Positions 3,342 to 62,166 of a stretch of DNA of 64,000 nt are shown piece by piece. Positions within the stretch are counted from its first letter, which is position 1, and every line of letters begins with the position of its first letter. The notes beneath the pieces are model-generated. The model was not told the origin of the DNA. It saw only the letters and a list, made by a program, of their open reading frames with translations, and searched no databases. The stretch is taken from positions 131,328,996 to 131,392,995 of the forward strand of contig NC_055990.1 of NCBI RefSeq assembly GCF_018446385.1. The letters are read 5' to 3'. Source of the DNA: Zingiber officinale (taxonomy: Eukaryota > Streptophyta > Magnoliopsida > Zingiberales > Zingiberaceae). A program made the translations under genes and the position numbers.

Positions 3342-3346
3342 CTTTG

Positions 3347-3930
3347 CTCGGACGGTAACATATTAAGAACCATATATAAGGCTAAGTGTCTTTATACTCG
3401 GGCGAGATTTGCCCGGCTGAGCGTATATGAGCACATGGATGCTCGCTCGGCCTTTGGTCGGCCGGTAACATCCTGAAACCATATATAAGGCTAAGTGCCT
3501 TTATGTTCGAGCGAGCTTTGCCCGACCGAGTGTGTATGAGCACGTAAGTACTCACTCGACCTTCGATCAACCAGTAATGCACTAGAAATCATATATTAGG
3601 CTAAGTGCTTTTATGCTCGGGCGGACTTTGCCCGGCCAAGTGTGTATGAGCATGTGGGTACTCGCTTGGCCTTCGATCAGCCGGTAATGTACTAGAAATC
3701 ATATATTAGGCTAAGTGCCTTTATGCTCGGGCGGGCTTTGCCCGGCCGAGTATGTATGAACATATGGATGTTCTCTCGGCCTCTACTCGGCCTGTAATAT
3801 ATTAAAACTATACAAAAGGCTAAGTGTCTCTACGCTCGGTCGGGCTCTACCCGGCCGAGCGTGTATGAGCATATGGATACTCACTCGGCCTTCACTCGAC
3901 CGGCTATATACCTTTTCTATCCTTCTCGAC
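3347..3930. repeat. Tandem array of about 118-bp units in the G LTR
   Basis: About five imperfect units each carry ATATAAGGCTAAGTG, GCTCGGGCG and a GGCCGAGYGTGTATGAGCA segment. Matching arrays are at 56613-57190 (duplicate) and, inverted, at 38750-39660 in the plus-strand G LTR. The array therefore belongs to the U3-like part of this LTR family. Confidence 0.75.
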
Positions 3931-13619: not shown

Positions 13620-15131
13620 TTACAACATTTTCTTTGCTAGAAGCATTAAAGCATCTGAACATGACACCAACTCCGTTTCAATCATCTTATCATAGGAAAT
13701 AAATGCTCTCTGTATACCACCTCTGTTATAGTATGCTGTGATCAATGAATTATACATGCAGCTAGTAGGGGTCAAACCTTTCCTCCCCAAAATGCCAATA
13801 AATTTCTTAGCTTCACTCATTTTTCAACATTTGCAGAGGTTTTGAATCAAGGACTTATAGACCCTCATACTTAGCTCAAGACCCATATGCACCATCTCAT
13901 AGTAAAGTGTAATGATTTTCTGAAAATCTCCCGTAGTTCCATAGCCATCAATTAGAATCAAATATATTTCCTGATCAGGGACAAACGCCATGTTTAACAA
14001 AGATGTTAGAGTTCTGTTGGCTTCCTCAATATTTCCTGCGATGTAGAGTGTCTTTATCATCTCATTGCAAGTGCCAAGACTGGGCAAAAATCTACCTTCA
14101 AGCATCTTTTCACTATATCTCAAGCACTGATTTGTCCACCCATTTCTCGACAGATCAACTATCAGATGATTATATGTCTCGTCATATGGTTTCAGTCCTA
14201 TTGACACCATCTCTTCCATCATTTGAACAACCTCTTCGATTCTTTCTTCCGCGGAATAAAATCCTATTAGACAAGTGTAAACATATGAATTCAAGCTGCA
14301 TCCCCTGTTGATCATTTCGTCCTTGGATTGAAGTGCCTAGTCCAGTTTGCACAACTTGCAATAGCTAGCTACAATCAAAGAGTATGCAATATCATCAAAC
14401 ATCATGTTTCTTTGCAGCATTCTCTTCAAAAGAGTGATTGCTTCTTCAGCCCTATCCTCCTCAATGATCCTAAAAGCCAGTGTAGTGTTCACAATAATGC
14501 CAGGGGCACATCTACTCCCACGAATTCTATCTAAAACACTCACTAACTTTGACAAAACCCCTTCCTTGAGCATCACATCAATCATAACTTCAGTCGTTGT
14601 TTGGTTTGGGTATATTCTTCTTGCAAACATATATTCAAAGATCTTCAAGCCAAATTATTCTGATAAGATCTCTGTGAAACATGAAGCATTGTATTAAAGC
14701 TAATTATATTAGCGTTCAACCCATGATCTCCCAAGTATCTGCAAGCATCAAACGCTTCATTGACCATTCTCTTCTTCGAATACACCTGCAGCAAAAGATC
14801 AAAAACACGATGTCCGGGAAAAACTGCTTCGTAAATGCTGAGAAGCACCTCCACAATCGATGCATGCTGAGATGCAACTCTCTCTGTATACTTGCTGACT
14901 GCCGACTCCAGCAAAGCACGCGCATCGATAAGAAGGCCAGAACGAACAAGGACATGAACAATGAAGCAATAAGATCGCAGACCGTGTTCGAAATGTTTGG
15001 TCTAGGAGCACCAGTGGAAGAAAGTTAGCGCCATTTTTGCATCAATGGGTTCCTTGAGGTAAAGTATCACTTGCTCCACCAGGGGTTCAGTGAGTTGCAT
15101 TGATCCGAAACCAGCAGTTAGGCTGTCCAAG
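13620..15131 (-). pseudogene. P-class PPR pseudogene, copy W
   Basis: Readable PPR repeats include EVMIDVMLKEGVLSKLVSVL, AEEAITLLKRMLQRNMMFDD, EEMVSIGLKPYDETYNHLIV and NRTLTSLLNMAFVPDQEIYL. Blocks lie at 14645-14914, 14337-14648, 13824-14315 and 13620-13820. One-base losses near 14650 (LA-KIFEYMF) and near 14900 break the frame. A TAG near 14337 interrupts CKLCKLD. TGA replaces a glycine codon after QNLCKC near 13821, and the same stop is at 28304 in the tandem copy. This copy lies directly upstream, on the minus strand, of the DRB 3' fragment rather than the flank found with copies U, U' and U''. Confidence 0.85.
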
Positions 15132-16137: not shown

Positions 16138-17650
16138 TCACTGTTCAACTTCTAGCATTTTTTTGGCTAGAAGCATGAAAGCATCTGAACATGGCACCAA
16201 CTCCATTTGAATCATCTCATAGAAAATAAGTGCTCTCTGTATACCGCCTCTGTTACGATATGCTATGATCAATGAATTATACATACAATTAGTAGGGGTC
16301 AAACCTTTCCGCCCCAAAATGCCAATAAATTTCTCAGCTTCACTCATTTGTCCACATTTGCAGAGATTTTGAACCAAGGACTTGTAGAACCTCACATTGG
16401 GCTCAAGACCCATATGCACCATCTCATAGTAAAGTGTGATGATTTTCTGATAATCTCCAGTTGTTCCATAGCCATCAATTAGAATCAAGTATATTTCTTG
16501 ATCAGGGACAAGCCCCATGATCAACAAAGATGTCAGAGTTCTGTTGGTTTCCACGATACTATGTAGAGTGTCTTTATCATCTCATTGCAAGTGTCAAGAC
16601 TGGGCAAAAATCCACCTTCAAGCATCTTTTCACTATATCTCAAGCACTAATTTGTCCATCTCGATAGACCAATTATCAGATGATTATATTTCTCGTCATA
16701 TGGTTTCAGTCCTATTGAGCTCATCTCTTCCATCATTTAAACAACCTCTTCGATTCTTTCTTCCTGACAAAAAAATCCTATTAGACAAGTGTAAACATAT
16801 GAATTCAAGTTGCATCCCCTATTGATCATTTCGTCCTTGGATTGAAGTGTCGAGTCTAGTTTGCACAACTTGCAATAGCTAGTTACAATCAAAGAGTATG
16901 CAATATCATCAAACATCATGTTTCTTTGCAACATTCTCTTCAAAAGAGTGATTGTTTCTTCAGCCCTATCCTCCTCAATGATCCTAAAAGCCAATGTAGT
17001 GTTCACAATAATGCTAGGGGCACATCTACTCCCATGAATTCTATCCAAAACACTCACTAACTTTGGCAAAAGTCCTTCCTTGAGCATCACATCAATCATA
17101 ACTTCAGTCGTTGTTTGGTTTGGATATATTCTTCTTACAAACATATATTCTAATATCTTTCAAGCCAAATTATTCTGATCAGATCTCGGTGAAACATGAA
17201 GCATTGTGTTAAAGCTAATTATATTAGCATCCAACCCATGATCTCCCAAGTATCTGCAAGCATCAAACGCTTCATTGACCTTTCTCTTCTTCGAATACAC
17301 CTGCAACAAAAGATCAAAAACACGATGTCCGGGAAAAACTGCTTCGTAAGTGCCGAGAAGCACCTCCACAATTGATGCATGTTTAGATGCAACTCTCTCT
17401 GTATACTTACTGACTGCCGACCAAGCACGCACATCGATAAAAAGGCCAGAACGAATAAGGACATGAACAATGAAGTAATAAGATCGCAAGTCATGTTCGA
17501 AATGTTTAGTCTGGGAGCACCAGTGGAAGAAAGTTAGCGCCTTTTTTGCGTCGATGGGTTCCTTGAGGTAAAGTATCACTCGCTCCACCAGGAGTTCGGT
17601 GAGTTGTACTGATCTGAAACCAACGGTTAGGCTATCAAAGCTCTAACCTT
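16138..17650 (-). pseudogene. P-class PPR pseudogene, copy U'
   Basis: The N-terminal block (17160-17588) is open from MERVILYLKEPIDAKKALTF through ISFNTMLHVSPRSDQNNLA. It then meets a TGA where copy U has a tryptophan codon (LAWKIFEYMF). The next block (16737-17144) runs to a stop after ERIEEVV, and the last (16138-16554) contains TLYYEMVHMGLEPNVRFYKS and ALIFYEMIQMELVPCSDAFM. The TAG upstream of the start that interrupts SNKG-SFDSL is shared with copy U. The repeats are P-type, with no PLS, E or DYW tail. It lies head-to-tail with copy W. Confidence 0.85.
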
Positions 17651-19404: not shown

Positions 19405-21251
19405 TGTTGGTGCAATATCCCTCAGGTCAAGGTTGACCTGATTGACCAAGCTTGAGTCTTGGTTTTGATTTCAATGTTTGACAATACAAGACTTCGATGA
19501 TATGGACAAGTGCAGGTGCAGTTGTACAGTTGCGGAGATTGTTTGGTGCAATTCCCCTCTGATCAAGGTCTGATCAGGTTGGTTGAAGAAGAGTTAAGTA
19601 GGTCAAGGTTGACCAGATACTTGACTGGGAAGTCCTAACTTGGAGGTTAGGCAAAGGAAAATCCTAGTGAGTGAAGCTAGGTGAAAGTCCTAGTGAGTGG
19701 AGCCAGGCAGAGAGAAAATCTTGGTGAGTGAAGCCAGGTGAAAGACCTAGTGAGTGAAGGTAGGCAAAAGGAAAACCCTAGTGAGTGAAGCTAGGTGAAA
19801 GTCCTGGTGAGTGAAGCCAGGTGAAAGACCTAGTGAGTGAAGCTAGGCAAAAGGAAAATTTTAGTGAGTGAAGCTAGGTGAAAGTCCTAGTGAGTGAAGC
19901 TAGGCAGAAGGAAAATCCTAGTGAGTGAAGCTAGGTGAAAATCCTAGTGAGTGAAGCTACGTGAAAGACCTGGTGAGTGAAGCCAGGTAGAAGACAAGTC
20001 CTAGTGAGTAAAGCTAGGCAGAAGGGAAGTCCTGGTGAGTGAAGCCAGGCACGGGGAAAACCAGATGGGTTAAGGTTGACCAGACATCTGGTGAAAGTCC
20101 AAGTAGGTCAAAGGGATTGACCGGATACTTAGCACGAGGAAGAAAAGTCCAAGTAGGTCAAAGGGATTGACCGGATACTTTGCAAGAAGGGAAAAGTCCA
20201 AGTAGGTCAAGGGAGTGACCAGATACTTGGCACGATGAGGAAAAGTCCAAGTGGGTCAAAGGGATTGACCGGACACTTGGTGAGGGAGTCCTAGCAGGTC
20301 AAGGGTGACCGGATGCTAGGTATGATGAACCAACAGGTCATGGATTGACCGGATGTTGGTTTGAGTGCTTGGGACTTGGTTTTGGGCAAAAACCAGCAGC
20401 TGGATCGATCAGCCGATCGATTGGCTGGAGCCCAATCGATCGCCCGATCGATTGGGGAGTCCCTGCGAGAAGCCTTTGTCCCAATCGATCAGTGGATCGA
20501 TTGGGAGGCAGTCGCGTGCGTACAGAAGCCTACTGGATTGATCAGTGGATCGATCCAGAGATCCCAATCGATCAGTGGATCGATTGGGAAGTTGCGATCT
20601 GTCTCGATAAGCCCTGGATCGATCAGCCGATCGATCCAGGCAAATTCCCATAGCACAGAGGCGCTCTGGATCGATCAGTGGATCGATCCAAAGCCTCCCC
20701 GATCGATTGGTAGCAATCCAATCGATCGGGATCCAACCGTTGGCGTCGTATTTATCTGTAGGCGCTCGATTCCTTCGGTAGAGACAACGCAGAACACCAC
20801 CGATTCATCTTAGATCTTCACTGTTCTCTCAGAGCTCTTCCACAAGGTTCAGATCGCCAGTTCTTGAAGGTTCTTGGAGGTTTTCCATGTCAAGATGCGG
20901 ATCTACAGCTGAGGAAGAAAGCTAGGGTTAGGGTTTTCTATACTCATTGTAAGTTTTTGCTTGTATTTGTGTATCCTTTCCCTTTCTTCTTGTAGTGTGA
21001 ACTTGTAGGGCTTCTCCGCCTTCGGTAGTTACCGAAAAGGAGTGTTTATTAGTGGAGGTGTGTGTGAGTGTGTGGATATTTGGACTAGTCACCTCCTTTG
21101 GAGGTGGATATCAAGTAAATCTATTTGTTAGCGTTGTTGTATTTGTTTCTTGTATATTTCCGCTGCACATCTTTGAAGAAACAAGCAACGCCAACCACGA
21201 GCACACGACGAGCTATTCACCCCCCCTCTAGCTACATATTCGGTCCCAACA
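19405..21251 (+). repeat. 5' LTR of element L1
   Basis: 1847 bp, starting TGTTGGTGCAATATCC and ending CGGTCCCAACA. Like the solo LTRs at 1656 and 46953 it holds the GTGAGTGAAG hairpin array (about 19660-20050), GGTCAA/TTGACC hairpins (20060-20362), ATCGATC palindromes (20400-20735) and the TTCGGTA/TACCGAA hairpin. It lacks the extra 11 bases at the 5' end of the solo copies, so it represents a separate subfamily. Confidence 0.9.
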
Positions 21252-21253
21252 AG

Positions 21254-21265
21254 TGGTATCAGAGC
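21254..21265 (+). other. tRNA-Met primer-binding site of L1
   Basis: TGGTATCAGAGC starts two bases after the LTR end. It is complementary to the 3' end of initiator tRNA-Met, the usual primer of plant Copia elements. Confidence 0.9.
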
Positions 21266-23157: not shown

Positions 23158-23966
23158 GCCCGATCGATTGGGGAGTCCCTGCGAGAAGCCTTTGTCCCAA
23201 TCGATCAGTGGATCGATTGGGAGGCAGTCGCGAGCGCACAGAAGCCTGCTGGATCGATCAGTGGATCGATCCAGAGATCCCAATCGATCATTGGATCGAT
23301 TGGAAGTTGCGGTCTGTCGTGATAAGCCCTGGATCGATCAGCCGATCGATCCAGGCAAATTCCCATATCACAGAGGCGCTCTGGATCGATCAGTGGATTG
23401 ATCCAAAGCCTCCACGATCGATTGGGAGCAATCCTATCGATCGGGATCCGACCGTTGGCGTCGTATTTAGCTGCAGGCGCTCGATTCCTTCGGTAGAGAC
23501 AACGCAGAACATCACCGATTCATCTCAGATCTTCACTGTGCTCTCAAAGTTCCTCCACAAGGTTCAGATCGCCAGTTCTTGAAGGTACTTGGAGGTTTTC
23601 CAATTCAAGAGGTGGATCTACAACTGAGGAAGAAAGCTAGGGTTAGGGTTTTCTATACTCATTGTAAGCTTTTGCTTGTATTTGTGTATCCTTTCCCTTT
23701 CTTCTTGTAGTGTGAACTTGTAGGGCTTCTCCGCCTTCGGTAGTTACCGAAAAGAAGTGTTTATTAGTGGAGGTGTGTGTGAGTGTGTGGATCCTTGGAC
23801 TAGTCATCTCCTTTGGAGGTGAATACCAAGTAAATCTACTTGTTAGCATTGTTGTATTTGTTTCTTGTATACTTCCGCTGCACATCTTTGAAGAAACAAG
23901 CAACGCCAACCACGAGCACGCGACGAGCTATTCACCCCCCCTCTAGCTACATATTCGGTCCCAACA
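23158..23966 (+). repeat. Truncated 3' LTR of element L1
   Basis: This 809-bp segment matches the 5' LTR from about 20442 to its end. The junction with gag falls at GGAGCCC, a short sequence also present in the 5' LTR, which suggests a microhomology deletion. Confidence 0.85.
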
Positions 23967-28102: not shown

Positions 28103-29640
28103 TTACAGCATTTTCTTTGCTAGAAGCATTAAAGCATCTGAACATGGCACCAACTCCTTTTCAATCATCTTATCATAGAAAATAAGTGCTCTCTGTATAC
28201 CACCTCTGTTACAGTATGCTGTGATCAATGAATTATACATGCAGCTAGTAAGGGTCAAAACTTTCCTCCCCAAAATGCCAATAAATTTCTCAGCTTCACT
28301 CATTTTTCAACATTTGCAGAGGTTTTGAACCAAGGACTTATGGACCCTCATACTGAGCTCAAGACCCATATGCACCATCTCATAGTAAAGTGTAATGATT
28401 TTCTGAGAATCTCCCGTAGTTCCATAGCCATCAATTAGAATCAAATATATTTCCTGATCAGGGACAAGCCCCATGTTTAACAAAGATGTCAGAGTTCTGT
28501 TGGCTTCCTCCATATTTCCTGCTATGCAGAGTGTCTTTATCATCTCATTGCAAGTGCCAAGACTAGGCAAAAATCTACCTTCAAGCATCTTTTCACTACA
28601 TCTCAAGCACTGATTTGTCCACCCATTTCTCGATAGACCAACTATCAGATGATTATATGTCTCGTCATATGGTTTCAACCCTATTGACACCATCTCTTCC
28701 ATCATTTGAACTGCCTCTTCGATTCTTTCTTCCTCGGAATAAAATCCTATTAGACAAGTGTAAACATATGAATTCAAGCTGCATCCCCTGTTGATCAATT
28801 TGTCCTTGGATTGAAGTGTCGAGTCCAGTTTGCACAACTTGCAATAGCTAGCTACAATCAAAGAGTATGCAATATCATCAAACATCATGTTTCTTTGCAG
28901 CATTCTCTTCAAAAGAGTGATTGCTTCTTTAGCCCTATCCTCCTCAATGATCCTAAAAGCCAGTGTAGTGTTCACAATAATGCCAGGGGCACATCTACTC
29001 CCACGAATTCTATCTAAAACACTCACTAACTTTGGCAAAATCTCTTCCTTGAGCATCACATCAATCAAAACTTCAGTCGTTGTTTGGTTTGGGTATATTC
29101 TTCTTGCAAACATATATTCAAAGATCTTCCAAGCCAAATTATTCTGATCAGATCTCTATGAAACATAAAGCATTGTGTTAAAGCTAATTATATTAGCGTC
29201 CAACCCATGATCTCCCAAGTATCTGCAAGCATCAAACGCTTCATTGACCATTCTCTTCTTCGAATACACCTGCAGCAAAAGATCAAAAACACGATGTCCG
29301 GGAAAAACTGCTTCGTAAGTGCTGAGAAGCACTCCACAATCGATGCATGCTGAGATGCAACTCTCTTTGTATACTTGCTGACTGCCGACTCCAGCAAAGA
29401 ACACACATCGATAAGAAGGCCAGAACGAACAAGCACATGAACAATGAAGCAATAAGATCGCAGACCGTGTTCGAAATGTTTGGTCTCGGAGCCCAGTGGA
29501 AGAAAGTTAGCGCCTTTTTTGCGTCAATGGGTTCCTTGAGGTAAAGTATCACTTGCTCCACCAGGGGTTCAGTGAGTTGTACTGATCCGAAACCAGCAGT
29601 TAGGCTGTCTAAGCTCCAACCTTTGTTGCTCACATCGTTG
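28103..29640 (-). pseudogene. P-class PPR pseudogene, copy W' (best preserved)
   Basis: The longest intact stretch is 28307-29137, about 276 codons of PPR repeats: WKIFEYMFARRIYPNQTTTE, AITLLKRMLQRNMMFDD, CLIGFYSEEERIEEAVQ, MLEGRFLPSLGTCNEMIKTL, LLNMGLVPDQEIYLILIDGY. Upstream, near 29500-29633, the frame SLDSLTAGFGSVQLTEPLVE followed by QVILYLKEPIDAKKALTFF extends the N-terminus beyond the other copies, with tryptophan where copies U and U' have a stop. Lesions are one-base losses near 29495 and 29330, a TAG before RSDQNN near 29154, and TGA for glycine at 28304, shared with copy W. The original protein would have had roughly 500 residues. The target RNA is unknown. Confidence 0.85.
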
Positions 29641-38632: not shown

Positions 38633-38749
38633 TGATATGAGTTATGATGAAGTGGTCTGGCAAGCGAAGTAGAGGTCATGGTCGAGAAAGAAAGGATGAT
38701 GAACGACCAAATAAAAGGCCGAGGGAGCACTAATGTGCTTACAGGCACT

Positions 38750-39660
38750 CGGCCAGGCAAAGCACGATCGAGCGTAAAGATATTTAGCCTTATATATAGT
38801 TTTTAATATATTACCGGCCGACTAAAGGTCGAGCAAGTACTATTGTATGTATATGCGCTCAGTCGGACAAAGCCCGATCGAGCATAAAGATATTTAGCAT
38901 TATATATAGTTTTTAGTATATTATCGACCGACTAAAGGCCGAGCGAGTACTATTATATGTATATACGCTCTGTCGGGCAAAGCCCAATCGAGTATAAAGA
39001 CACTTAGCCTTATATATAGTTTTTTGTATATTACCGGCCGACTAAAGGTCAAGCGAGTACTATTGTACGTATATGCACTCGGCCGGGCAAAGCCCGATCG
39101 AGCATAAAGGCACTTAGCCTTATATATAGTTTTTAGTATATTACTAGTCGATTAAAGGCCGAGCGAGTACTATTGTACGTATATGCGCTCGGCCGGGCAA
39201 AGCCCGATCGTGCGTAAACGCACTTAGCCTTATATATAAATTTTAGTATATTACCGACTGTCTAAAGGCCGAGCAAGTACTATTGTACATATATGCGCTC
39301 GGTCGGGCAATGCTCGATTGAGTGCAAAGCTACTTAACTTTATATATAGAAGCTTTTAGTATATTACCGGTCCACTAAAGGTCGAACGAGTACTATCGTA
39401 CATATACGCGTTCGGCTGGGTAAAGCTCGATTGAGTGTAAAGGTACTTAACCTTATATATAGAAGCTTTTAGTATGTTACTAGTCGAGTGAAGGTTGAGC
39501 GAGCGCTCATGTGCTTATACGCACCCGGTCAGACAGAGTCCGACCGAGCATAAAAGTATTTAGTCTTATAAAAGCTTTTAATATATCATCGATTGAATAA
39601 AGGCCGAGCGAGCACAGTGAGTGTATAGGGGCACGGCCGGGCAAAACTTGGCCGAGCGTA
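38750..39660. repeat. Tandem array of about 115-bp units in a G LTR
   Basis: Nine or so imperfect units have the recurring core GGGCAAAGCCCGATCGAGC, then TTAGCCTTATATATAG and TATATTACCGGCCGACTAAA. Each core is itself an inverted repeat (GGGC AAA GCCC within a longer GCTCG/CGAGC context). Confidence 0.8.
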
Positions 39661-43100: not shown

Positions 43101-44366
43101 TTAAAGTACTTTGAAGAAGGGGAGACTCCGATCGGCCGACCGAGAGATGAAGTGAAACAGGACGGTAATCCTCCCTGTCAATCTTTGTGCTTCCTTTAGG
43201 GTCCGTGGAGGCGTCATGTCTTGTAGTGCTTTTACTTTGCTGGGATTGGCTTCTATTCCCCGCTCGGTCACCATGTATCCTAGGAACTTCCCACTCTTGG
43301 CCCTAAATAAATATTTGTTGGGATTGAGATTGAGTCCATACCTCCTCAGAGTCCTACAAGTTTCTTCAATATCAGCACATAAACTAGAAGCCTGTGTAGA
43401 TTTAATAAGAATATCATCCACGTAAACTTCCATATTTCTTCCAATCTGCTTTTGAAAAACCTTGTTCATGAGCCTCTAAAAAGTAGCTCCTACATTCTTT
43501 AAACCAAAAGGCATAACATTCTAACAATAAGTACCTTCAGTAGTTATAAAGCTAATATTTTCCTGATCCGCCTTAGCAAGTGGAATTTGGTGATACTCCT
43601 AATAGGCGTCCAACATACTAATGAATTCACATCCAGCCGTAGAGTCCATCACTTGATCTATATGAGGTAGAGGATAATAATCCTTTGGGCAAGCTTTGTT
43701 GAGATCCCTGAAATCAATACATACTCGCCACTTATTACCTACCTTAGAAACCAAGACAACGTTAGCCAACCAGCTTGGAAATTGTACTTCTCGAAAATAT
43801 GCAGCCTCCAACAATTTATCCACTTCCTTCTTGATAATTTTATTCTGATAATCTCCGAAGTCCCTTTTCTTTTGTTTGACCAGCCAGACATCTGGGTATA
43901 CATGAAGAGCATGCTCCATAACCGTTGATGCCACACCTTTCACCTCCTTAGGTGTCCAGGTGAACACATCACTATTTTTCATAAGACATTTTATCAAGCC
44001 CTCCTTGAGATCAAGAGCAAAGTCGAACGCGATGTGGATAGTGGCTTCCGATCGATCGACTTGTATCTGCACCTCTTCCTTCTCCTCATATACAAGGGTG
44101 GGCAGTTTTTCATGGATGACATTGATATCCATCCTCTGAGCCTTTCGGGCGGTATTAGCTTCTGCCCTCACAACCTTCACATAGCACTTGTGTGCTACTA
44201 TTTGATCTCCTTTGACTTCGCCCACTTGGTGATCAACAGGGAATTTAATCTTCTGACAGAAAGTAGAAATGACCGCCCTGAATTCATTCAAGGCCGGCCG
44301 ACCCAGGATAACATTATACGCTGATGGGGCGTCCACCACCATGAAGATCGATCGGTGTGTCCGCAT
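43101..44366 (-). pseudogene. Gypsy reverse transcriptase
   Basis: The minus strand reads KWRVCIDFRDLNKACPKDYY, then the LPHIDQVMD region (43599-44366). Next is VMPFGLKNVGATF near 43490, and the catalytic YVDDILIKST in 43101-43469. Stops occur near 43520 (before NVMPFGL) and after GATF, and the frame is split near 43600. The block 43599-44366 also includes the linker from protease (NVILGRPALNEFRAVISTF). The active-site YVDD is intact, but the interruptions make the gene inactive. Confidence 0.9.
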
Positions 44367-46252: not shown

Positions 46253-48095
46253 TCCTACGCACAGTGAGACAAACCAACAAAGCCTTAGTGACCTAAGACT
46301 GAGGTGGGGATCCTTGGCTAGGCCCTCCGACGCTCAAGTCAGTTTCTCTCTCAAGGGTGGAAGGAAAAAGAAGAAGAACAATAACTGAAGTAGTTTGAAA
46401 CAGAGTTTAGATGCTAGAACTTGTGAATCTTGCCAACGGAGAAGATCCCCCTTTTTATACTATCTCATGTGGCCTCTGTAGTCGTGAAGTAGTCCCCAGT
46501 TCGTTAGGGTTTGTTAGGAGATGAAGTCATCTTCTATACTTCGTGCAATAATCCTTTAAGGAATCTTCCTAGTACCCCAGATGTACCTCTTTTGTCATTT
46601 ATGACTTATATTTATAATGGTGACACATCATCATAACTAAAGAAGGTTCTAAAAGATATTTCCCATCAAATATTCTGTTGGGCATATCTCGATTGGTCGT
46701 TCAAGCCGGCTGCATATATTAAGGATACTTTTTGCTGCACATGTCTTAACCAGTCATTCAAGCCAGCTGTATATATTAAGAATACCTTCTATTGAGCATA
46801 TCCCGGCTGGTCGTATACGAGGAATACCTTTTATTGAGCATATCTCAGCCGGTCGTTCAAGCCGGTCGTATATGAGGAATACCTTTTGTTGAGCATGTTC
46901 CGTTCAAGAATGTACTATAAGGCTGAGTGACTTTATGTTCGGTCAGGCTTTGTGTTGGGAGATTGTTGGTGCAATATTCCCCAGGTCAAGTTTGACCTAA
47001 TTTGACTGAGCTTGAATTGGGTCAATCTCGAGTCTTAATGTTTATGTTTTGATGGTTTGACAATACATGTTGACAATACATGTTTGACATTACATGTAGA
47101 CAACACATGGAGATTGCAGGTGCAATTATTCATGTGTGGAGATTGTGATGGAGAGTCAAGTAGGTCAAGATTGACCGGATACTTGACTGGAAAATCCTGG
47201 TGAGTGAAGTCAGGTGAAAGTCCTAATTTGGAGGTTAGGCAAAGGAAGTTCTGGTGAGTGAAGTCAGGTAGAAGAAAATCCTGGTGAGTGAAGCCAGGTG
47301 AAAGACCTAGTGAGTGAAGCTAGGCAGTGAGGAAATCCTAGTGAGTGAAGCTAGGTGAAAGTCCTGGTGAGTGAAGACAGGCAGAGGAAAATCCTGGTGA
47401 GTGAAGCCAGGTGAAAATCCTAGTGAGTGAAGCCAGGTGAAAATCCTAGTGAGTGAAGCCAGGCAGAAGAGAAGTCCTAGTGAGTGAAGCTAGGCAGAAG
47501 GGAAGTCCTGGTGAGTGAAGCCAGGCACGGGGAAATCCAGATGGGTCAAGGTTGACCAGACATCTGGTGAAAGTCCAAGTAGGTCAAAGGGATTGACCGG
47601 ATACTTGGCACGAGGAAGAAAAGTTCAAGTAGGTCAAAGGGATTGACCGGATACTTGGCAAAAAGGGAAAAGTCCAAGTGGGTCAAAGGAATTGACCAGA
47701 CACTTGGTGAGAGAGACTTAGCTGGTCAAGGGTGACCGGATGCTAGGTTTTATGAACCAACAGGTCATGGATTGACCGGATGTTGGTTTGGGGGCTTGGG
47801 ACTTGGTTTTGGGCAAAACCAATGTCTGGATCGATCAGCCGATCGATTGGATGATGCCCAATCGATCGGTCGATCGATTGGGAAGGTCTTCGCGACAAGC
47901 CTCGAGTGGGCAAGTCGCAAAACTCACAGAACGTCTCCGGATCAATCGGTCGATCGATCCAGAGACCCAAATCGATTAGTGGATCGATTGGGGTGGCGCG
48001 TTTCTGCATGATAAGCCCTAGATCGATCGACCGATCGATCCAGGCAATTCCTGAGAGCACAGAGGCTCTCTGGATCGATCAGTGGATCAATCCAA

Positions 48096-48291
48096 TGTAG
48101 GATCAAAAAGAATTTAGATATCTCCACAATGGCATGATATTGTCCACTTTGGGCCTAAGCCCTCATGGTTTTGCTCTTGGGCTCTCCCCAAAAGGCCTTA
48201 AGCCAATGGAGATATCTTTCTCTTATAAACCCATGATCTTTTCCATGTGTTTTCAATGTGGGACTATGTTTGCAACCTTGCAACCCCAACA
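48096..48291 (-). repeat. 196-bp outer LTR, left (3' LTR)
   Basis: Starts TGTAGGATC and ends CCCCAACA. It differs from the right copy at only a few positions (for example CTTAAGCC against CTCAAGCC), so insertion was recent. Confidence 0.9.
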
Positions 48292-48598
48292 ATCCCCCCC
48301 TCAAACAAAGGACCACGGGCTTTCCATGTCCGATCCTCGACCCACCAGGTCTTCCTGCCCCTCGGTCTACCTGACCTACTAGGACTTCCTGCCCCTCGGT
48401 CCACCCGACCTACTAGGACTTCCTTGCCTAGCCGCAACTAGGACTTCCTGCGTGGTGTCTGGTCCTCTTGATCCGAACATAGGAGCCCCCACTTTCTTTG
48501 TTCGAGGTTAATATTGTACTCACATGGTTTAATCAGACCATAGCTCTTGTGCACAGTCGGTGGTTAAACCTTCTGGCAGTCCGGGCTCTGATACCAAT
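48292..48598 (-). other. TRIM-like internal region with polypurine tract and primer site
   Basis: On the minus strand it begins with the tRNA-Met primer site (complement at 48585-48596, two bases from the LTR to its right) and ends with a GAGGGGGGG purine tract next to the 196-bp LTR. In between, 34-bp units with GGACTTCCTGCCCCTCGGT repeat about three times (48335-48430). There is no coding capacity. This is the anatomy of a terminal-repeat retrotransposon in miniature. Confidence 0.75.
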
Positions 48599-51206
48599 TG
48601 TTGGTTGTTACTCGGAAAACCTAATGGTTCCACTGTACAAAAATTTTGTACAAAGGTCTGAACCTTTTCCTAGCTACCATGTGCATTTTAAATTAAACTT
48701 GGATCACCTGCGGAACTTAACACGTTTGATCCAAAGTTTAATTTATTTGTTCTTTTAGGTTTTGACTTGGATCTCCTACGGAACTTAACACGTTCGATCC
48801 AAATCACCTAAGTTATTAATTCCATTAAATATTAATTTCCATAATTGGTTCCCAGTACTGACGTGGAGAGGCACATGACCTTCTTGGATATGGGAACAAC
48901 CACCACCGACTAGACAAAACCTTTTAAGGAAAGCTAATATTTAATTTCCTAAAATAACTTTAGGTTAACCGAAAGGAACAATCAAATCACAAGGAAAAGA
49001 AGAAAACATAAGAACACTACATCGAAAATAAATTCGAAATACTAGAATCGTAAGCCTCTTGTATTTGGTATTATTTCCAAAAATAACTAGTATGATGCGG
49101 AAAGAAAAAATACTAGTTATACCTTTTAGAAAGACCTCTTGATCTTCTACCGTATTCCTCTTCTAATCTCGGACGTTGTGTGGGCAATGATCTTCCGAGA
49201 TGAGAATCCACCAAAGCACCTTCTTCTCCTTTCTTCAAGTTTCGGCCAAGCACAAAGCTTCCAAAAGATGAAGATCTTTTTCCACCAACCAAGCTCTAAG
49301 GGATGCAAGAAACAAGACTCCTTTCTCTCCTTTTCTCCAAGCTAGATCCGGCCACTTCTATACCTCCAAGAGATGATGAAGTCTCGACCACAAGAAGGAG
49401 AAGAGAGAAGGAGAAGGGGAACCTCTAGGGGCCGGCCACACCAAGGAAGAAAAGAGAGGAAGAAAAAGAATAGAGGTTGTACCCATGAAGGCTCCTCTAC
49501 CTCCTCTTTTATAATCCTTGGTTTTGGCAAATAAGGAAATTTTAATAAAAACTTCCTTAATTCTTTTGCCATGAAAAGGAAAATTTTATTTAATTAAAAA
49601 TAATTTTTCTTCTCCAATTTATTTGGTCGGCCACCTCTTTCCCCAAAACAAGGAGAGTTTTAATTAAAACAAAAATTAAAACTTCCTAATTTGTTTCTAG
49701 AAATTTATAAAAATTTCTCTAATAATTTAATCCCCTCATGATTGGTTAATAAAAAGAAATTTTATAAATTAAAATATTTCTTTTAAACATGTGGATAATT
49801 TCCAAAAGGAAAGTTATCTCTAAAAATTAAAATCTCCTTTCAATCTACAAATAAGGAAAGATATTAAATCTTTTCTTAATCTTTTGTAGAAACTAATTTA
49901 AGAGAATTATTAATTTTTAAACTTTCTTTTAAATCATGAACATGGTTAAAAAGGAAATTTTTTATCAAAATTAAAATCAACCTTTTAATCTACAAATAAG
50001 GAAAGAGATTTAACTCTTCTCTTAATCTTTTGTAGAATCTTATAAAAAGAAAGATTTAAATTTTTAAACTCTCTTTTAAATCATGTTATCCACATAAGAA
50101 AAATTTTAAAAAAATAAAAATCCTTTTATTTTAATTTGGGCCGGCCACACTAAGCTTGAACCCAAGCTAGAGCCGGCCACCTTGAAGCACCCATGAACCA
50201 AACTTTGGCCGGACCTAGCTTGGTCTCCAAGCTAGCTTGGCCGGCCCCTATGGGATGGGTAAGAAGGTGGGTATAGGTGGGTATAGTACTCTATAATTAA
50301 GAGGCTATGATAGGGACCGAGAGGAGGAATTGGTTTTGGTCTCCCGATAAAATTAAGCATCCCGTGTTCGCCCCAAACACACAACTTAATTTTATCAATA
50401 ATAATTCATTCTACTAGAGAACTATTATCGAACTATCGCACCAATCCCAAATTACATTTTGGGCTCCTTCTTATTATGAGTGTGTTAGTCTCCCTGTGTT
50501 TAAGATAACAAATGTCCACTAATTAAGTAAGTTACTGACAACTCACTTAATTAATATCTAGCTCCAAGAGTAGTACCACTCAACTTCATCGTCATGTCGG
50601 ACTAAGTCCACTTGCAGGGTTTAACATGATAATCCTTATGAGCTCCTCTTGGGGACATTCTCAACCTAGATCACTAGGACACAGTTTCCTTCTATAATCA
50701 ACAACACACACTATAAGTGATATCATTTCTCAACTTATCGGGCTTATTGATTTATCGAACTAAATCTCACCCATTGATAAATTAAAGAAATAAATATCAA
50801 ATATATGTGCTTGTTATTATATTAGGATTAAGAGCACACACTTCCATAATAACTGAGGTCTTTGTTCCTTTATAAAGTCAGTATAAAAGAAACGACCTCT
50901 AATGGTCCTACTCAATACACTCTAAGTGTACTAGTGTAATTATATAGTTAAGATAAACTACTACCTAATTACACTACGACCTTCCAATGGTTTGTTCCTT
51001 TCCATCTTGGTCGTGAGCTACTGTTTATAATTTATAAGGAACCGATAACATAATCTTCTGTGTGTGACACCACACACCATGTTATCTATAATATAAATTA
51101 ATTGAGCAACTACATTTATCATAAATGTAGACATTTTACCAATGTGATTCTTATTTCTAGATAAATGTTTATACCAAAAGTTAGGCTTTTAGTATACATC
51201 CTAACA
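48599..51206 (-). repeat. 2608-bp LTR of Copia family B inside the composite element
   Basis: On the minus strand it begins TGTTAGGATGTATACTAAAA at 51206, directly after the purine tract AAGTGGGAGAT, and ends AACAACCAACA at 48599, directly before a tRNA-Met primer site. It is therefore a genuine LTR lying between a 3' end and a 5' start. Only one copy is present. Confidence 0.8.
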
Positions 51207-51220
51207 ATCTCCCACTTATA
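51207..51220 (-). other. Polypurine tract of Copia family B
   Basis: The minus strand reads AAGTGGGAGAT immediately before the LTR start, the priming site for plus-strand DNA. Confidence 0.75.
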
Positions 51221-51576
51221 CTAAAAGACTAAGCTGCCATATCTGCTACCATACATCTGATTCCCAACCCTTCAACATGCCCATCAAAAGCTCTTGCCTT
51301 TAGGACCTTAGTGAAAAGATCTATAGGTCATCATCTGATGTAATCTAGGCAGCAACAACTTCTCCTCGTTTATACGATTTCTCGTATTGGGTGGTACTTG
51401 CGCTCTATTGTATTTACTTGCCTTATAGACTTATGGTTTCTTCGAGTTTGCTACTGCACCAATATTATTACAATAAATTGTAATAATCTTTGGACAAACT
51501 AGAAATCATATCTAAGTCTATCTTGAGGTTATTGAGTCATTCAACTTTTATGGCTACCTCAGAGGCTTGCCATATA

Positions 51577-52041
51577 CTAAGCTTCTATGGTGGAGTCCAG
51601 AAAAACACCTATGCTTATCACTCTTCCATAGTTATGACTTTTTCTCCTAAAGTAAACACAAAACCCCGAGGTTGACTTATTATTGTTCTTATCCGATTGG
51701 AAGTCAAAATCCATGCAACCCACAGGGACCAAAATAGCTGCCTTGTAAACTAGCATATAAACTCTAGTGCCTCTAAGGTACTTCAATATATGCTTTACTG
51801 CAGACTAATGTCCTTGTCTAGGGTAACTTTGATATCTGCTAACCATGCCCACGGCAAAACAGATATTCTGTCTTGTACACAGCATTGCATACATTAGGCT
51901 TCCCTGAGCCGAAGCATAAGGAACTGCCTTCATGTCCTTTATCTCCTTTAATGTCTTCGGAGGCATCTCTTTAGATAAAACTACTCCATGCCTAAAAGGT
52001 AAGAAACCATTCTTAGAGTTTTGCATGCTTAAAACGAGCAA
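51577..52041 (-). pseudogene. Copia RNase H and end of reverse transcriptase (family B)
   Basis: 51805-52041 has SKEMPPKTLKEIKDMKAVPY, then AQGSLMYAMLCTRQNICFAV, the end of the Copia reverse transcriptase. 51577-51786 has MKYLRGTRVYMLVYK, DFDFQSDKNNNKSTSGFCVY, the start of RNase H with its Asp. Stops and a frame change separate the two blocks near 51790. Inactive. Confidence 0.85.
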
Positions 52042-52079
52042 GGATTTTTCTGATATATGAAGCTTGGGATAAGTAAAAT

Positions 52080-52911
52080 ATTCTTTTCTTGCGATCCCTT
52101 ATTACTTTGATCTCAAGAATATATACATTCTCCCAAGTCCTTTATATCGAATTGTTTGGACAACCATACCCTTACTTCTGACAACATTTTGATATTGTTT
52201 CCAACTACCAAAAATGTTATCTATGTATAGTACAAGAAATACCACCACGTTTCCATCACACCTTTTGTAAACACAAGACTTATCCGGTTACTAAATAAGT
52301 CCATAGGTTTGGATTACTTTGATAAACCGGATGTTCCAAGACCTTGAAGCTTTGCCTCAGTCCATAGACTGATTGAGCTTGCACACAAGATGCTCTTAGC
52401 CCTTTGTAATGAACCCTTCTAGTTGCTTTATATGGATGCTTTCTTTAAGACTTTCATTAAGGAATGCTGTCTTGACATCCACTTGCCAAATAGATAAAAG
52501 AATCCGGATAGACTTAAGCATGGTTGCCAGTGAAAAAGTTTCCTTTTTCATCAAGCCTTGCTTTGAAAGTTTCTACCTTCCTGTCTATCCCTCTTTTCCT
52601 ATTATAGACCTTTTTACATCCAAAGGCTTTTACACCATTTGGTGGTTCTACAAGCTTCCAGATTTTATTAGAATACATATATTCTAATTCTTTTTATTCA
52701 TTACTCTTTGCCAAGATGCTGCATCTTTATCTTGGAGTGCTTCGTCATATGTCCGGAGATCAGGTTCATGTCCTCCAGGGATCGAGTCCAAAAACTCTCC
52801 CAAAACATGAATCTTTTTAGGTTGCCTAACAACCCTCCTACTACGACGAGCCACTTTCTGCAATTGTGTATCATTTGTGATACGTGTTGCAGTTTCCTTG
52901 TGGTATCTCAT
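52080..52911 (-). pseudogene. Copia reverse transcriptase (family B)
   Basis: The N-terminal flank at 52684-52911 contains RVVRQPKKIHVLGEFLDSIP and YDEALQDKDAASWQRVMNKK. The catalytic region near 52190-52290 reads SCVYKRCDGNVVVFLVLYID, then NIF. The usual YVDD box is YIDN (52216-52227), with the second catalytic Asp replaced. Several stops are present between 52290 and 52420. The polymerase cannot be active. Confidence 0.8.
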
Positions 52912-53246
52912 CTTGTACAGTTGGTACTAGATTAGACATGTCTTTTATTATTTCCTTAAGAACAAATTTTCTTATGGGCACGAGGTTTATTACATAGTCC
53001 TTTTCTAAAAATCGATCATTGATGCTAACAATAGCCTTCTAATTTTAAAGACTATAAACCTACTTTCATTTCTCTAGGATAACCCACAAATAAGTGAATT
53101 CCTATCCAACTTATCATTGTCTCTCTTCAGCATATGTGCTGGACTACCCGAATCCGAATATGCTTCAAAATTGGCTTACGTCTATTCAGCAATTCTATAT
53201 GAGTAGAGAGTTCTGACTTTGGAAGGTATTATATACACTTTTGTTT

Positions 53247-53504
53247 CTAGTGTATATCCTTAAAACGAATTTGGTAATTCATCATCAATCTACTTATTTC
53301 TATAAGAGTTTTATACCTTCTTTCTACTACACCATTCTGTTGGGGTATACCAGGTGTAGTTAGTTGGGATTGAATCCCTACTTCTGATAAGTGACTCCTA
53401 AATTCTCCCAAAAAGGTACTTGCCACTACGATCTCACCGTAGTGTCTTGATACTTTTACTTTGATGTTTCTCCACATCAGCCTCGTACTCTTTGAACTAA
53501 TCAA
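53247..53504 (-). pseudogene. Copia integrase core fragment (family B)
   Basis: The minus strand contains FRSHLSEVGIQSQLTTPGIP and QQNGVVERRYKTLIEISRLM, the end of the integrase catalytic core with its Glu. Sequence on both sides is interrupted by stops. The gene order integrase before reverse transcriptase identifies a Copia element. Confidence 0.85.
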
Positions 53505-54150
53505 AGCACTTAGACTTGCGGCATATCAAGTAAATGTATCCGTATCTCAAATAGTTGTCTATAAAATAGATGAAATATTTGAAAATACCTCTTGTCTGGA
53601 TAGTCATAGGATCACACAAATCAGAATGAACCAATTCCTATATATCTTTAGCTCCAAACCCCTTAGACTTAAAAGCTTCTTGGTTATTTTCCTTCCAAGT
53701 AAGACTCGCAGGTTGGAAAGATTTCCACTACTAATGAACCCAAAAGTTCATCAGCTACCAATGAATCCTACTTAAGTTAATATAACCTAGCCTTAGATGT
53801 CAAAGATATAATTGGTTCATTTCCGAAGGTTGCTTTCTCTTAAAGTTAGAAGATGTGTTACTAATTTCCATTTATTGCATCGTGGGAGTTATTGGATTAT
53901 AAATTGTCAATCATCATACCAGAATAGATAACTTCCCTATTTTTCTTGATAACAACTTTGTTATCAAAATAGACACAATATCTATTCTATAATAGTTTAG
54001 AAACTGAAATCAGGTTCTTTCTAAACTTAGTATGTAAAGACAATTCTAATAATCCAAATTTTATTCCTATTAGAGAATAAACCTCTCCCACTGCAACAGC
54101 TGCTACTTTTACAGTAGTGCCCATGTGGATGGTGTTTTTTATTTTCATTT

Positions 54151-54235
54151 AGTTATCGGGTTTCCTGAAACCCTGCAATGAATTACAGACATGATTAATG
54201 GTATCTGTATCTACACTCCAGGTTCTGGTAGATAA
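54151..54235 (-). pseudogene. Copia protease motif (family B), degenerate
   Basis: The minus strand reads TRTWSVDTDTINHVCNSLQG. The family pattern is W-x-x-D-S/T-G-A/C then NHVCNSL, so the Asp is kept but the following Ser-Gly is replaced by Thr-Asp. Gag, expected to its right, is not recognisable. Confidence 0.6.
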
Positions 54236-54239
54236 CACC

Positions 54240-55851
54240 ACTAGACATGTTCCAACTAACGAATTAAATACACCTAAATTGTTCTTAGTTCTAAGAAGAC
54301 AGTCTACCTTAATGTCCAAGTCCTATTACCAATAATTACTATTGGGACTACTAAGTCTTTTCTATAGTATAACAACTAGGGAATTGACAAACATTTTAAA
54401 TCCTAAGAATCACAAAAATATTTGGTCAAGATCAATTCCTTAGAATCCCCATGAATTTTATATGCCACGATAGTGTGGATGTATACAAAATCAAAGAGGA
54501 GATTTTATCCATTAATTTTATTATCTCGTCAACTTTACTTTATGACAAATAAAATTAATAATTGATCTATCTTTGATCAAATATTTGGTCAAAACTTTTG
54601 AATTTAAAATAACATTGATTCCTCAAACAATATTATTTAAATTCACCAACACCTCAAACACCGTGAATTTTGCATGCCACGATAGTGTGGACGTATACAA
54701 AATTAAACATTTGTAAGAGCAGGGGTTTACCCATTAATTATCTTGTCAATAAATCTTTATGACAAATAAAATTACCTCAAACACCGTGAATTTTGTATGC
54801 CACGATAGTGTGGACGTATACAAAATCAAACATTTATAAGAGGGGTTTTTAATTTTATTATCTTGTCAACCTATTTATTTGACAAATTAATAGTTGGTTT
54901 TCTTTGGTCACACAAATAATAGCAGTGACTCCGATGGGGAGGATATTATTAGACGTGCCTAAGTGTATACCATTACTTGACACTAAGTCCATTAATAAGA
55001 TTATGCCCCTTCCGATGGAAAAGATCGCACGCTCTTAATTAGCTTCCTATAGTCATCCAAAATGGAAGTTTAATCTAGTGATCCGCAAACAAGCTCATCC
55101 GATATGGAGGAAGGCACTCAGAGCCAACGCACAAGCTTGTTGCATCACTTATAAACCAGTAATGGAGACCGTGGAATTTATTTAAAATAAATCCCTCTCC
55201 CACTTAGTTATTTAAAGTGAGGAATTTTGCCTATGCTAGTCTACCTAACATGCATACTAACAAGCACACACAACACAGCATAAAAAGCAATAAATAGAAA
55301 AACTAATTTTCAACTATTATGGCTTTTATCTATTGTTGTCCTCCGTGTGTCGTCAACCCTAGCTGCTGCCATCTTTGGCCACCGCCACCGGGTCTAGTTG
55401 TCACATCCATCTTGCTCCTTGTTCCGCTGCACCTCTGGTCCTCAAAAGGTTCCACGCCTTACAAGATTCGATCCGCAACATAAATAGAATTTTACATTTT
55501 TCGATCCTATATTCCTCGAAGGAATGTACATGTAAACTAGATCGAACATAAAATAAAATTTACATCCATCGATCCTATATTTCATAAAAGGAATGTACAT
55601 GTAACTAGATCAAAAAATAAAATCCTAATAAAACTAAATACAGCTCCTGCTGTATTTTATAATACAATCATCCACACACAATAAAATGCCCTTGACATGT
55701 CCAAGGGTCCAATCACACACATAATAACTATAAGCCATAATAGTTGGATCCTACATCCACAAAGTTAGCACATCCTACTATTAACCTGCCTAAATTATGT
55801 ATGACATGTGTATAATTAAACTAATACCAAATACACAGAGGCAAAACCCTA
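54240..55851. other. Degenerate 5' internal region of the composite element
   Basis: A gag region with no readable domain. A unit containing TGCCACGATAGTGTGGA within about 42 bp recurs near 54452, 54664 and 54785. No other gene is seen. Confidence 0.45.
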
Positions 55852-55863
55852 GCTCTGATATCA
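55852..55863 (-). other. tRNA-Met primer-binding site at the right LTR of the composite element
   Basis: The complement reads GCTCTGATATCA, two bases from the LTR at 55866. The other primer site at 48585-48596 has the same spacing and one base difference. Confidence 0.8.
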
Positions 55864-55865
55864 AT

Positions 55866-56061
55866 TGTAGGATCGAAAAGAATTTAGATATCTCCACAAT
55901 GGCATGATATTGTCCACTTTGGGCCTAAGCCCTCATGGTTTTGCTCTTGGGCTCTCCCCAAAAGGCCTCAAGCCAATGGAGATATCTTTCTCTTATAAAC
56001 CCATGATCTTTTCCATGTGTTTTCAATGTGGGACTATGTTTGCAACCATGCAACCCCAACA
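55866..56061 (-). repeat. 196-bp outer LTR, right (5' LTR)
   Basis: Same length and ends as the left copy. The 5-bp TCCAA repeat follows directly at 56062. Confidence 0.9.
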
Positions 56062-56612
56062 TCCAAAGTCTCTCCGATCGATTGGGAGCAATCCAATCGA
56101 TCGGGATCCGACCGTTGGCATCGTATTTAGTTGCAGACGTTCGATTCCTTCAGCAGAACTTCACGCATACAGCTCCGATATTCACAGGCGACTCCATAGC
56201 TTCTCCACAGAGCTCACCACGCCAGATCTTGAAGATACTTGGAAGTTTTGTCCAAGTCAAGAGGCGAAGAAGAGAAGTTAGGGTTAGGGCTTTTATTGCA
56301 CTTCTTGTAAGCTTTTGCTTGTTCTTTACTGCCCTTCTCTTCCTTCTTGTATTGAGAGTCTTGTAGGGGTTCTCCGCCTTCGGTAGTTACCGAAAAGGAG
56401 TGTTTATTAGTGGAAGTGTGTGTGAGTGTGTGGATCCTTGGACTAGTCACCTCCTTTGGAGGTGGATATCAAGTAAATCTACTTGTTAGCGTTGTGTGTG
56501 TTGTTTCTTGTATATTTTCACTGCACATCTTTGAAGAAACAAGCAACGCCGACCACGAGTACGCGACAAGCTATTCACCCCCCTCTAGCTACATTTCGGT
56601 CCCAACACTTTG

Positions 56613-57190
56613 CTCGGCCGGTAACATATTAAGAACCATATATAAGGCTAAGTGTCTTTATGCTCGGGCGAGATTTGCCCGGCTGAGCGTATATGAGTAC
56701 ATGGATGCTCGCTCGGCCTTTGGTCGGTCAGTAACATCTTGAAACCATATATAAGTCTAAGTTCCTTTATGCTCGAGCGGGCTTTGCCCGACCGAGTGTG
56801 TATGAGCACGTGAGTACTCACTCGGCCTTCGATCAGCCGGTAATGCACTAGAAATCATATATTAGGCTAAGTGCTTTTATGTTCGGGCGGACTTTGCCCG
56901 GCCAAGTGTGTATGAGCACGTGGGTACTCGCTTGGCTTTCGATCAGCCGGTAATGTACTAGAAATCATATATTTGGCTAAGTGCCTTTATGCTCGGGCGG
57001 GCATTGCCCGGCCGAGTATGTATGAACATATGGATGTTCTCTCGGCCTCTACTCGGCCTGTAATATATTAAAACTATACAAAAGGCAAAGTGCCTCTACG
57101 TTCGGTCGGGCTCTACCCGGCCGAGCGTGTATGAGCATATGGATACTCACTCGGCCTTCACTCGACCGGCTATATACCTTTTCTATCCTT
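56613..57190. repeat. Tandem array of about 118-bp units (copy 2)
   Basis: Paralog of 3347-3930 with the same unit order. Confidence 0.7.
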
Positions 57191-59324: not shown

Positions 59325-60263
59325 CTAGCATTTTTTTTTGGCTAGAAGCATGAAAGCATCTGAACATGGCACCAACTCCATTTGAATCATCTTATAGAAA
59401 ATAAGTGCTCTCTGTATACCGCCTCTGTTACAATATGCTATGATAAATGAATTATACATACAATTAGTAGGGGTCAAACCTTTTCGCCCCAAAATGCCAA
59501 TAAATTTCTCAGCTTCACTCATTTGTCCACATTTGCAGAGGTTTTGAACCAAGGACTTATAGAACCTCACATTGGGCTCAAGACCCATATGCACCATCTC
59601 ATAGTAAAGTGTGATGATTTTCTGATAATCTCCAGTTGTTCCATAGCCATAAATTAGAATCAAGTATATTTCTTGATCAGGGACAAGCCCCATGATCAAC
59701 AAAGATGTCAGAGTTCTATTGGTTTCCATGATACTATGTAGAGTATCTTTATCGTCTCATTGCAAGTGTCAAGACTGGGCAAAAATCCACCTTCAAGCAT
59801 CTTTTCACTATATCTCAAGCACTAATTTGTCCATCCAATTCTCGACAGACCAATTATCAGATGATTATATGTCTCGTCATATGGTTTCAATCCTATTGAG
59901 CTCATCTCTTCCATCATTTGAACACCCTCTTCGATTCTTTCTTCCTGAGAATAAAATCCAATTAGACAAGTGTAAACATATGAATTCAAGCTGCATCCCC
60001 TGTTGATCATTTCGTCCTTGGATTGAAGTGTCGAGTCTAGTTTGCACAACTTGCAATAGCTAGTTACAATCAAAGAGTATGCAATATCATCAAACATCAT
60101 GTTTCTTTGCAACATTCTCTTCAAAAGAGTGATTGTTTCTTCAGCCCTATCCTCCTCAATGATCCTAAAAGCCAGTGTAGTGTTCACAATAATGTCAGGG
60201 GCACATCTACTCCCATGATTTCTATCCAAAACACTCACTAACTTTGGCAAAACCCCTTCCTTG
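59325..60263 (-). pseudogene. P-class PPR pseudogene, copy U'', cut by element E
   Basis: 59325-59729 contains NRTLTSLLIMGLVPDQEIYL and TLYYEMVHMGLEPNVRFYKS. 59822-60250 contains AEETITLLKRMLQRNMMFDD, CLIGFYSQEERIEEGVQMME and LKPYDETYNHLIIGLSR. A frame break lies between them near 59730-59820. The N-terminal half is missing because the LTR of element E begins at 60264, inside the codons for MLKEGVLPK as read in copy U. The missing part may continue beyond the window. Confidence 0.85.
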
Positions 60264-62153: not shown

Positions 62154-62166
62154 TGGTATCAGAGCC
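62154..62166 (+). other. tRNA-Met primer-binding site of element E
   Basis: TGGTATCAGAGCC lies one base after the LTR end, complementary to initiator tRNA-Met. Confidence 0.88.

Follow-up and report, generated by a model that had tools for sequence, protein, structure and literature searches.

A TRIM-like retrotransposon in Zingiber officinale encloses a decayed Copia relic joined to it at the primer-binding site

A 64,000-nucleotide stretch of Zingiber officinale DNA (assembly GCF_018446385.1, contig NC_055990.1, positions 131,328,996 to 131,392,995 of the forward strand), hereafter the window, holds a composite retroelement in which the parts of two elements, A and B, alternate. All coordinates are positions in the window. 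Read on the minus strand from 56061 down to 48096, the composite consists of a long terminal repeat of A (LTR-A), a primer-binding site (PBS), the Copia-like internal region of B (about 4.6 kb), a polypurine tract (PPT-B), LTR-B, a further PBS, the internal region of A, PPT-A and a second LTR-A (Table 1); the two LTR-A copies differ at three of 196 sites. A first-pass annotation had listed 196-bp LTRs, TCCAA target repeats, two PBSs, two PPTs and a 2608-bp LTR of another family, all of which we recovered. LTR-B is described here as LTR-like on the basis of its anatomy, that is, its position and its TGTTAG...CAACA ends. No second copy of LTR-B was found within the window and no 5-bp repeat surrounds the existing one, whose flanks in plus orientation are CCAAT on the left and ATCTC on the right.

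Table 1. Parts of the composite retroelement and its closest paralogous empty site; positions are those of the window.
Feature	Position	Strand	Basis
Target-site duplication, left copy, TCCAA	48091-48095	+	sequence; single in three paralogous empty sites
LTR-A, 3' copy (element orientation), 196 bp	48096-48291	-	193/196 identical to other copy; TRIM-like family
PPT-A, PPT-like tract GAGGGGGGGAT (minus strand)	48292-48302	-	sequence
A (TRIM) internal region, taken as non-coding, 292 bp	48292-48583	-	LTR-A/PPT/A-internal linkage also in P0121
Second PBS TGGTATCAGAGC, exact; LTR-B/A-internal junction	48585-48596	-	
LTR-B, single LTR-like unit, 2608 bp, TGTTAG...CAACA	48599-51206	-	lies between PPT-B and second PBS
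PPT-B, PPT-like tract AAGTGGGAGAT	51207-51217	-	sequence
Decayed Copia reverse transcriptase/RNase H remnant	51232-52145	-	10 frameshifts and 5 stops versus P0001
Decayed Copia reverse transcriptase pieces, two frames	52399-52693	-	PF07727 RVT_2, E 2.1e-4 and 9.5e-5, both under curated cut-off
Decayed Copia integrase pieces	53250-53637	-	PF13683 rve_3, E 0.0011 on 53250-53525, under cut-off
B 5' internal region, approximate boundary, with diverged repeats at 54449-54910	54330-55851	-	
First PBS TGATATCAGAGC, one mismatch versus TGGTATCAGAGC; LTR-A/B-internal junction	55852-55863	-	
LTR-A, 5' copy (element orientation), 196 bp, end CGATCCTACA	55866-56061	-	193/196 identical to other copy
Target-site duplication, right copy, TCCAA	56062-56066	+	sequence
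Paralogous empty site, TCCAA ending at 2796	2304-3434	+	94.5% versus joined flanks 47600-48095 and 56067-56700

Terminal-repeat retrotransposons in miniature (TRIMs) have short LTRs, a short non-coding internal region, a PBS, a PPT and a 5-bp target repeat. Element A has this anatomy, with LTRs of 196 bp, an internal region of 292 bp, a PBS, a PPT and the TCCAA repeat. Relatives of LTR-A were sought with a 93-residue antisense open reading frame (ORF) that spans LTR-A and runs into the A internal region; the relatives found are proteins, without their DNA. Among 60 candidates, antisense stretches resembling LTR-A were present in 36 proteins at E <= 1. By our own reading, 14 of the 36 continue from the LTR into sequence like the PPT and the A internal region, four have PBS-like residues ahead of the LTR, and two (P0124 and P0131) have both features, the pattern expected from the inner LTR of a tandem TRIM; regular-expression counts were 16, 4 and 3 before P0126 (a chance word) and P0151 (doubtful) were removed by eye. 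The closest relative, P0121, matches 73% of the query at 90% identity and spans the join between LTR-A and the A internal region, and P0156 (E = 0.1) reads LTR, internal region, PBS, LTR. The 36 protein-level relatives, taken with the anatomy, indicate that A is TRIM-like and a member of a family dispersed beyond this composite, which agrees with its identification as a TRIM in the first-pass annotation. Searches of viral contigs and genome contigs with an LTR-A motif, and of plasmids with the LTR-A/A-internal region, returned nothing. CpG dinucleotides are nearly absent from LTR-A, with observed/expected ratios of 0.0 (48096-48291) and 0.11 (55866-56061) against 0.65 for the window. One of the LTR-A relatives, P0132, which is not from the window, shows by eye LTR-A-like residues, PPT-like and PBS-like words and then residues unlike LTR-A, and is possibly another junction of a TRIM to a different LTR.

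Ten stop-free pieces of B gave three weak Copia-type matches in Pfam (two to RVT_2 and one to rve_3), all under the curated cut-offs; four further weak matches, to unrelated families, were disregarded. On the minus strand the integrase piece (53250-53525) lies 5' of the RVT_2 pieces (52399-52693), which is the Ty1-copia order, and the 53500-53637 part of the integrase region, without a Pfam match, was assigned by eye. The reverse transcriptase (RT)/RNase H piece has 1488 relatives at E <= 0.001, and the organisms named among the 120 matches listed are plants; P0026, from Zingiber officinale, matches at 71% over 68% of the query. Pfam matched no gag domain in the 5' part of B, read in three raw minus-strand frames, although frameshifts could hide one; this part, without a detected gag, contains three diverged repeats of about 120 bp (54449-54910). 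B presents neither the gag and intact pol expected of an autonomous element nor a pair of LTR-B copies, of which the window has one only. The end of LTR-B matched nothing in viral contigs and genome contigs, the RT piece gave seven stretches in viral contigs, none of them confirmed, and the integrase piece found nothing among PDB sequences.

The composite lies within a host repeat of which the window has at least three further copies. Three paralogous sites (2304-3434, 20174-21251 and 23237-23966) run uninterrupted through the joined flanks of the composite and contain TCCAA once; identity to the joined flanks is 94.5% over 1134 bp for the first and about 81-82% for the other two. As TCCAA is single in these empty sites, one target site was used. 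A single target site is by itself compatible with the arrival of B either together with A or later. The host repeat (47600-48095, 56067-56700 and its three paralogs) resembles an LTR of another retrotransposon, and the match to the paralog at 20174-21251 stops at 21251, shortly ahead of an exact PBS at 21254.

The condition of B is informative about its history. Compared with the intact relative P0001, 914 nt of its RT/RNase H region hold 10 frameshifts and five stops (15 lesions), a count that did not change at frameshift penalties of 15, 20 and 25; four control alignments of P0001 to back-translated P0017 and P0082 gave zero frameshifts or stops. Eight frameshifts and four stops were counted in B against P0017, over a shorter stretch, and three of each against P0026, for which the gene model is irregular and the alignment poor. 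We calculated the number of lesions expected since arrival under assumed values, namely an intact P0001-like ancestor, an indel rate of 0.1-0.2 per substitution and a shift of frame in 85% of the indels. The expectation is 0.9-1.5 lesions from the point estimate for LTR-A, 2.6-4.3 from its upper 95% limit, and 2.9-4.9 from the host repeat, for which divergence from the closest window copy (K = 0.0505) sets a residence limit of about 0.025 per lineage. The Poisson probability of 15 lesions under these three limits is about 6e-14 to 2e-4. Decay of B in place is therefore disfavoured (15 lesions against 0.9-4.9 expected), and B was very probably broken before it reached this locus. P0004, a protein of 108 residues from an ENA record, aligns to the same stretch of B without a frameshift, with 90 of 106 residues identical and two stops on the B side, and is the only protein with the out-of-frame segment of B among the matches listed (120 of 1488). 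Since P0004 is in frame with this shifted segment, a dead B sequence sharing these lesions is present elsewhere.

The LTR-A/B and LTR-B/A junctions have 17 columns in common, ACAATTG(A/G)TATCAGAGC, of which 16 are identical, and they are dissimilar on either side. The last bases are CGATCCTACA in the 5' copy of LTR-A, TGATCCTACA in the 3' copy and AACAACCAACA in LTR-B. For the rice TRIM OsajRetroS10, the relevant passages of Gao et al. 2016 (PMC4717578) report the stretch CGATCCTA(C/T)AA(G/T)TGGTATCAGAGCC, an LTR of 115 bp and a breakpoint near nt 130; by our own arithmetic from these numbers, the rice LTR ends with the first ten bases of the stretch, and this end, CGATCCTA(C/T)A, is shared with the 5' LTR-A. 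The outer LTR is therefore TRIM-type to its final base and, as LTR-B ends in AACAACCAACA, both exchanges lie inside the LTR-end/PBS stretch, which agrees with the proposal in the first-pass annotation that the shared PBS served as the homology.

We suggest, with confidence about evenly divided, that the composite is a cDNA of a TRIM and a dead Copia element, made in trans through strand transfer guided by the PBS and then inserted by its LTR-A ends. Two RNAs, that of the TRIM (A) and that of the already dead Copia relic (B), would have been co-packaged, with reverse transcriptase supplied in trans by a helper. Plus-strand strong-stop DNA of LTR-A would then use the PBS to switch to the minus strand of B and be extended through the B internal region, PPT-B and LTR-B up to the tRNA-copied PBS, where another transfer, onto the A minus strand, would add the A internal region, PPT-A and LTR-A. 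This linear molecule, bounded by LTR-A on both sides, would integrate and generate the TCCAA repeat; A and B would thereby have arrived jointly, whether the composite was then new or had moved before. We prefer strand transfer for three reasons: the junctions lie at the PBS, where transfer normally takes place, reverse transcription can be accompanied by frequent recombination, and it was the ends of A that integrated. As a review puts it in the passage concerned, PBS microhomology is used by alternative end joining for second-strand transfer. For Onsen, the published passages describe five of 32 sequenced new copies as single-parent and 27 of 32 as not, the recombination being within one family.

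These conclusions need to be weighed against several points. The support comes from one composite locus, seen in DNA sequence alone; two successive transfers and a tRNA copied twice are required; the first PBS has a mismatch; and a nuclear exchange would leave identical sequence. A 91-residue ORF across the LTR-B/PBS/A junction had no relative in a search of low power, and cross-family transfer is without direct precedent in the literature searched, the Onsen recombinants being intra-family in the passages that report them. The argument for the prior death of B also has two main escapes, gene conversion among the host copies and very unequal rates, either of which would make it weaker: if the whole host divergence (0.05) is placed on one lineage, 5.9-9.8 lesions are expected and P rises to between 1e-3 and 0.07.

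The first-pass annotation favoured a single crossover between an extrachromosomal B circle with one LTR and the PBS of a TRIM that occupied the site beforehand. Such a crossover reproduces the observed order and junctions exactly, and its order, its TRIM-like A and its exchange at the shared PBS all stand. According to passages of reviews, one-LTR circles arise by PBS-guided circularisation in fly and mouse systems, and fission-yeast Tf1 with a defective integrase inserts at the PBS, at the PPT and at full-length Tf elements. Together with the use of PBS microhomology cited above, this gives both routes support of a general kind. The homology, however, is just 16 of 17 bases, and an active B circle is weakened by the very probable prior death of B, as the circle would have to stem from a trans-copied or excised dead B; we consider the circle model rather unlikely. 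The same annotation had argued that the locus is not a plain nested insertion, and here it holds up: had B inserted into the TRIM, another LTR-B or a target repeat of B would be expected, whereas the window has a single LTR-B and no flanking 5-bp repeat, by which we rule such an insertion out. A solo LTR-B insertion is ruled out by the lack of a 5-bp repeat and by PPT-B and the PBS abutting LTR-B. An assembly misjoin at the short PBS repeat would need two coordinated errors, and a nested insertion that later lost precisely one LTR would need a deletion exact at both LTR edges, with no 5-bp repeat around LTR-B to speak for it; either seems improbable to us.

Two further explanations draw on published complexes. 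LTR-A might natively bound a Copia element with a duplicated LTR-end/PBS stretch, the TRIM being its deletion product, as Gao et al. 2016 proposed for OsajLTRA10; the rice elements do have TRIM sequence at either end and a 25-bp LTR-end and PBS duplication at the breakpoint (PMC4717578, passages on these elements). In the ginger composite, the stretch from pol to the second PBS contains PPT-B and the TGTTAG...CAACA LTR-like unit, and that PBS is preceded by an end that is not A-type. The pol therefore belongs to another element, and we regard a native Copia within LTR-A as a poor explanation of this locus. Template switching during reverse transcription was the main alternative in the first-pass annotation, and strand transfer at the PBS during that process yields the same product as the circle crossover. 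The form described by Sabot and Schulman 2007, R-to-R switching between two RNAs, agrees with the target-site duplication and the near-identical outer LTRs, but by our own derivation it predicts an outer LTR of the type U3(A)-R-U5(B) and an inner one of the type U3(B)-R-U5(A). Since CGATCCTACA, the end of the outer 5' LTR of the composite, is of TRIM type, an R-to-R switch is very improbable.

The composite can be compared with three kinds of known system. The complexes of Triticeae, rice and maize described by Sabot and Schulman (PMC1950507) likewise combine three LTRs with two internal parts, and they too have a single target repeat and outer LTRs that are nearly identical. Their parents, however, are close relatives, and R is the proposed point of the switch; the present composite joins two LTR families at the PBS and lacks the chimeric LTRs that an R switch would leave. 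With tandem LTR retrotransposons and TRIMs, as presented in passages of PMC11899658 and PMC4717578, the composite has in common an LTR shared by two internal regions and target repeats on the outside, but those tandems are arrays of the LTRs and internal regions of one element, whereas here two families alternate. The closest resemblance is to OsajLTRA10 and OsajRetroS10, in which, according to the passages available in PMC4717578, a large Ty1-copia element lies within TRIM LTRs, with TRIM sequence at both ends and a second LTR-end/PBS copy at the breakpoint. The difference is that the rice duplication, as given there, has an A-type LTR end at both places, while the inner end of the present composite is B-type. 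The literature searched, at limited depth, yielded no description of a TRIM fused to a Copia element at the PBS around an inner LTR of foreign origin, and a nucleotide-word search of papers gave nothing bearing on the composite by title among the 30 matches listed of 53 papers with at least one word.

The window has other features as well. PPR-like ORF fragments were recognised by eye at 6551-7402, 13824-14315, 16138-17588, 28307-29137 and 59325-60250 (minus strand), where a single gene region is apparently repeated several times, and Gypsy-type pol-like ORFs, also by eye, at 43101-44366 (minus strand). There is a 110-bp tandem repeat at 56629-57176, with related stretches at 3452-3869 and 38748-39256, and a further exact PBS 12-mer at 62154-62165 (plus strand), perhaps of another LTR element.

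The mobility of TRIMs and their autonomous partners are described as unresolved in the passages of Gao et al. 2016 that bear on them (PMC4717578), where larger elements related to 11 TRIM subfamilies are reported. The 25-bp LTR-end and PBS duplication is recorded there in three Nipponbare copies and the 93-11 element, and the TRIM is inferred to be the deletion product. OsajLTRA10 itself, with 8,504 bp, a TRIM of 408 bp and a pol of 1,577 residues with all domains, is published in the same passages as the putative autonomous source of its TRIM. On these published figures, subtraction of the TRIM and the coding parts from OsajLTRA10 would leave about 3.3 kb, room for an inner LTR, and OsajLTRA10 may be the same kind of object as the present composite. 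We tentatively raise, as a somewhat doubtful generalisation, the idea that PBS-joined composites of TRIM and Copia elements are recurrent in monocots, TRIM LTRs capturing and carrying one-LTR Copia units, including dead ones, and that published partners such as OsajLTRA10 are composites, not ancestors of TRIMs. The ginger locus offers an alternative to the partner reading, namely a TRIM that holds a foreign Copia element joined at the PBS, with the PPT and LTR of the Copia element still inside. It also gives a simple sequence criterion for each published TRIM partner, that is, whether an inner PPT and LTR lie ahead of the second PBS, and it points to a possible way for a dead element to reach a new site, carried by a TRIM.

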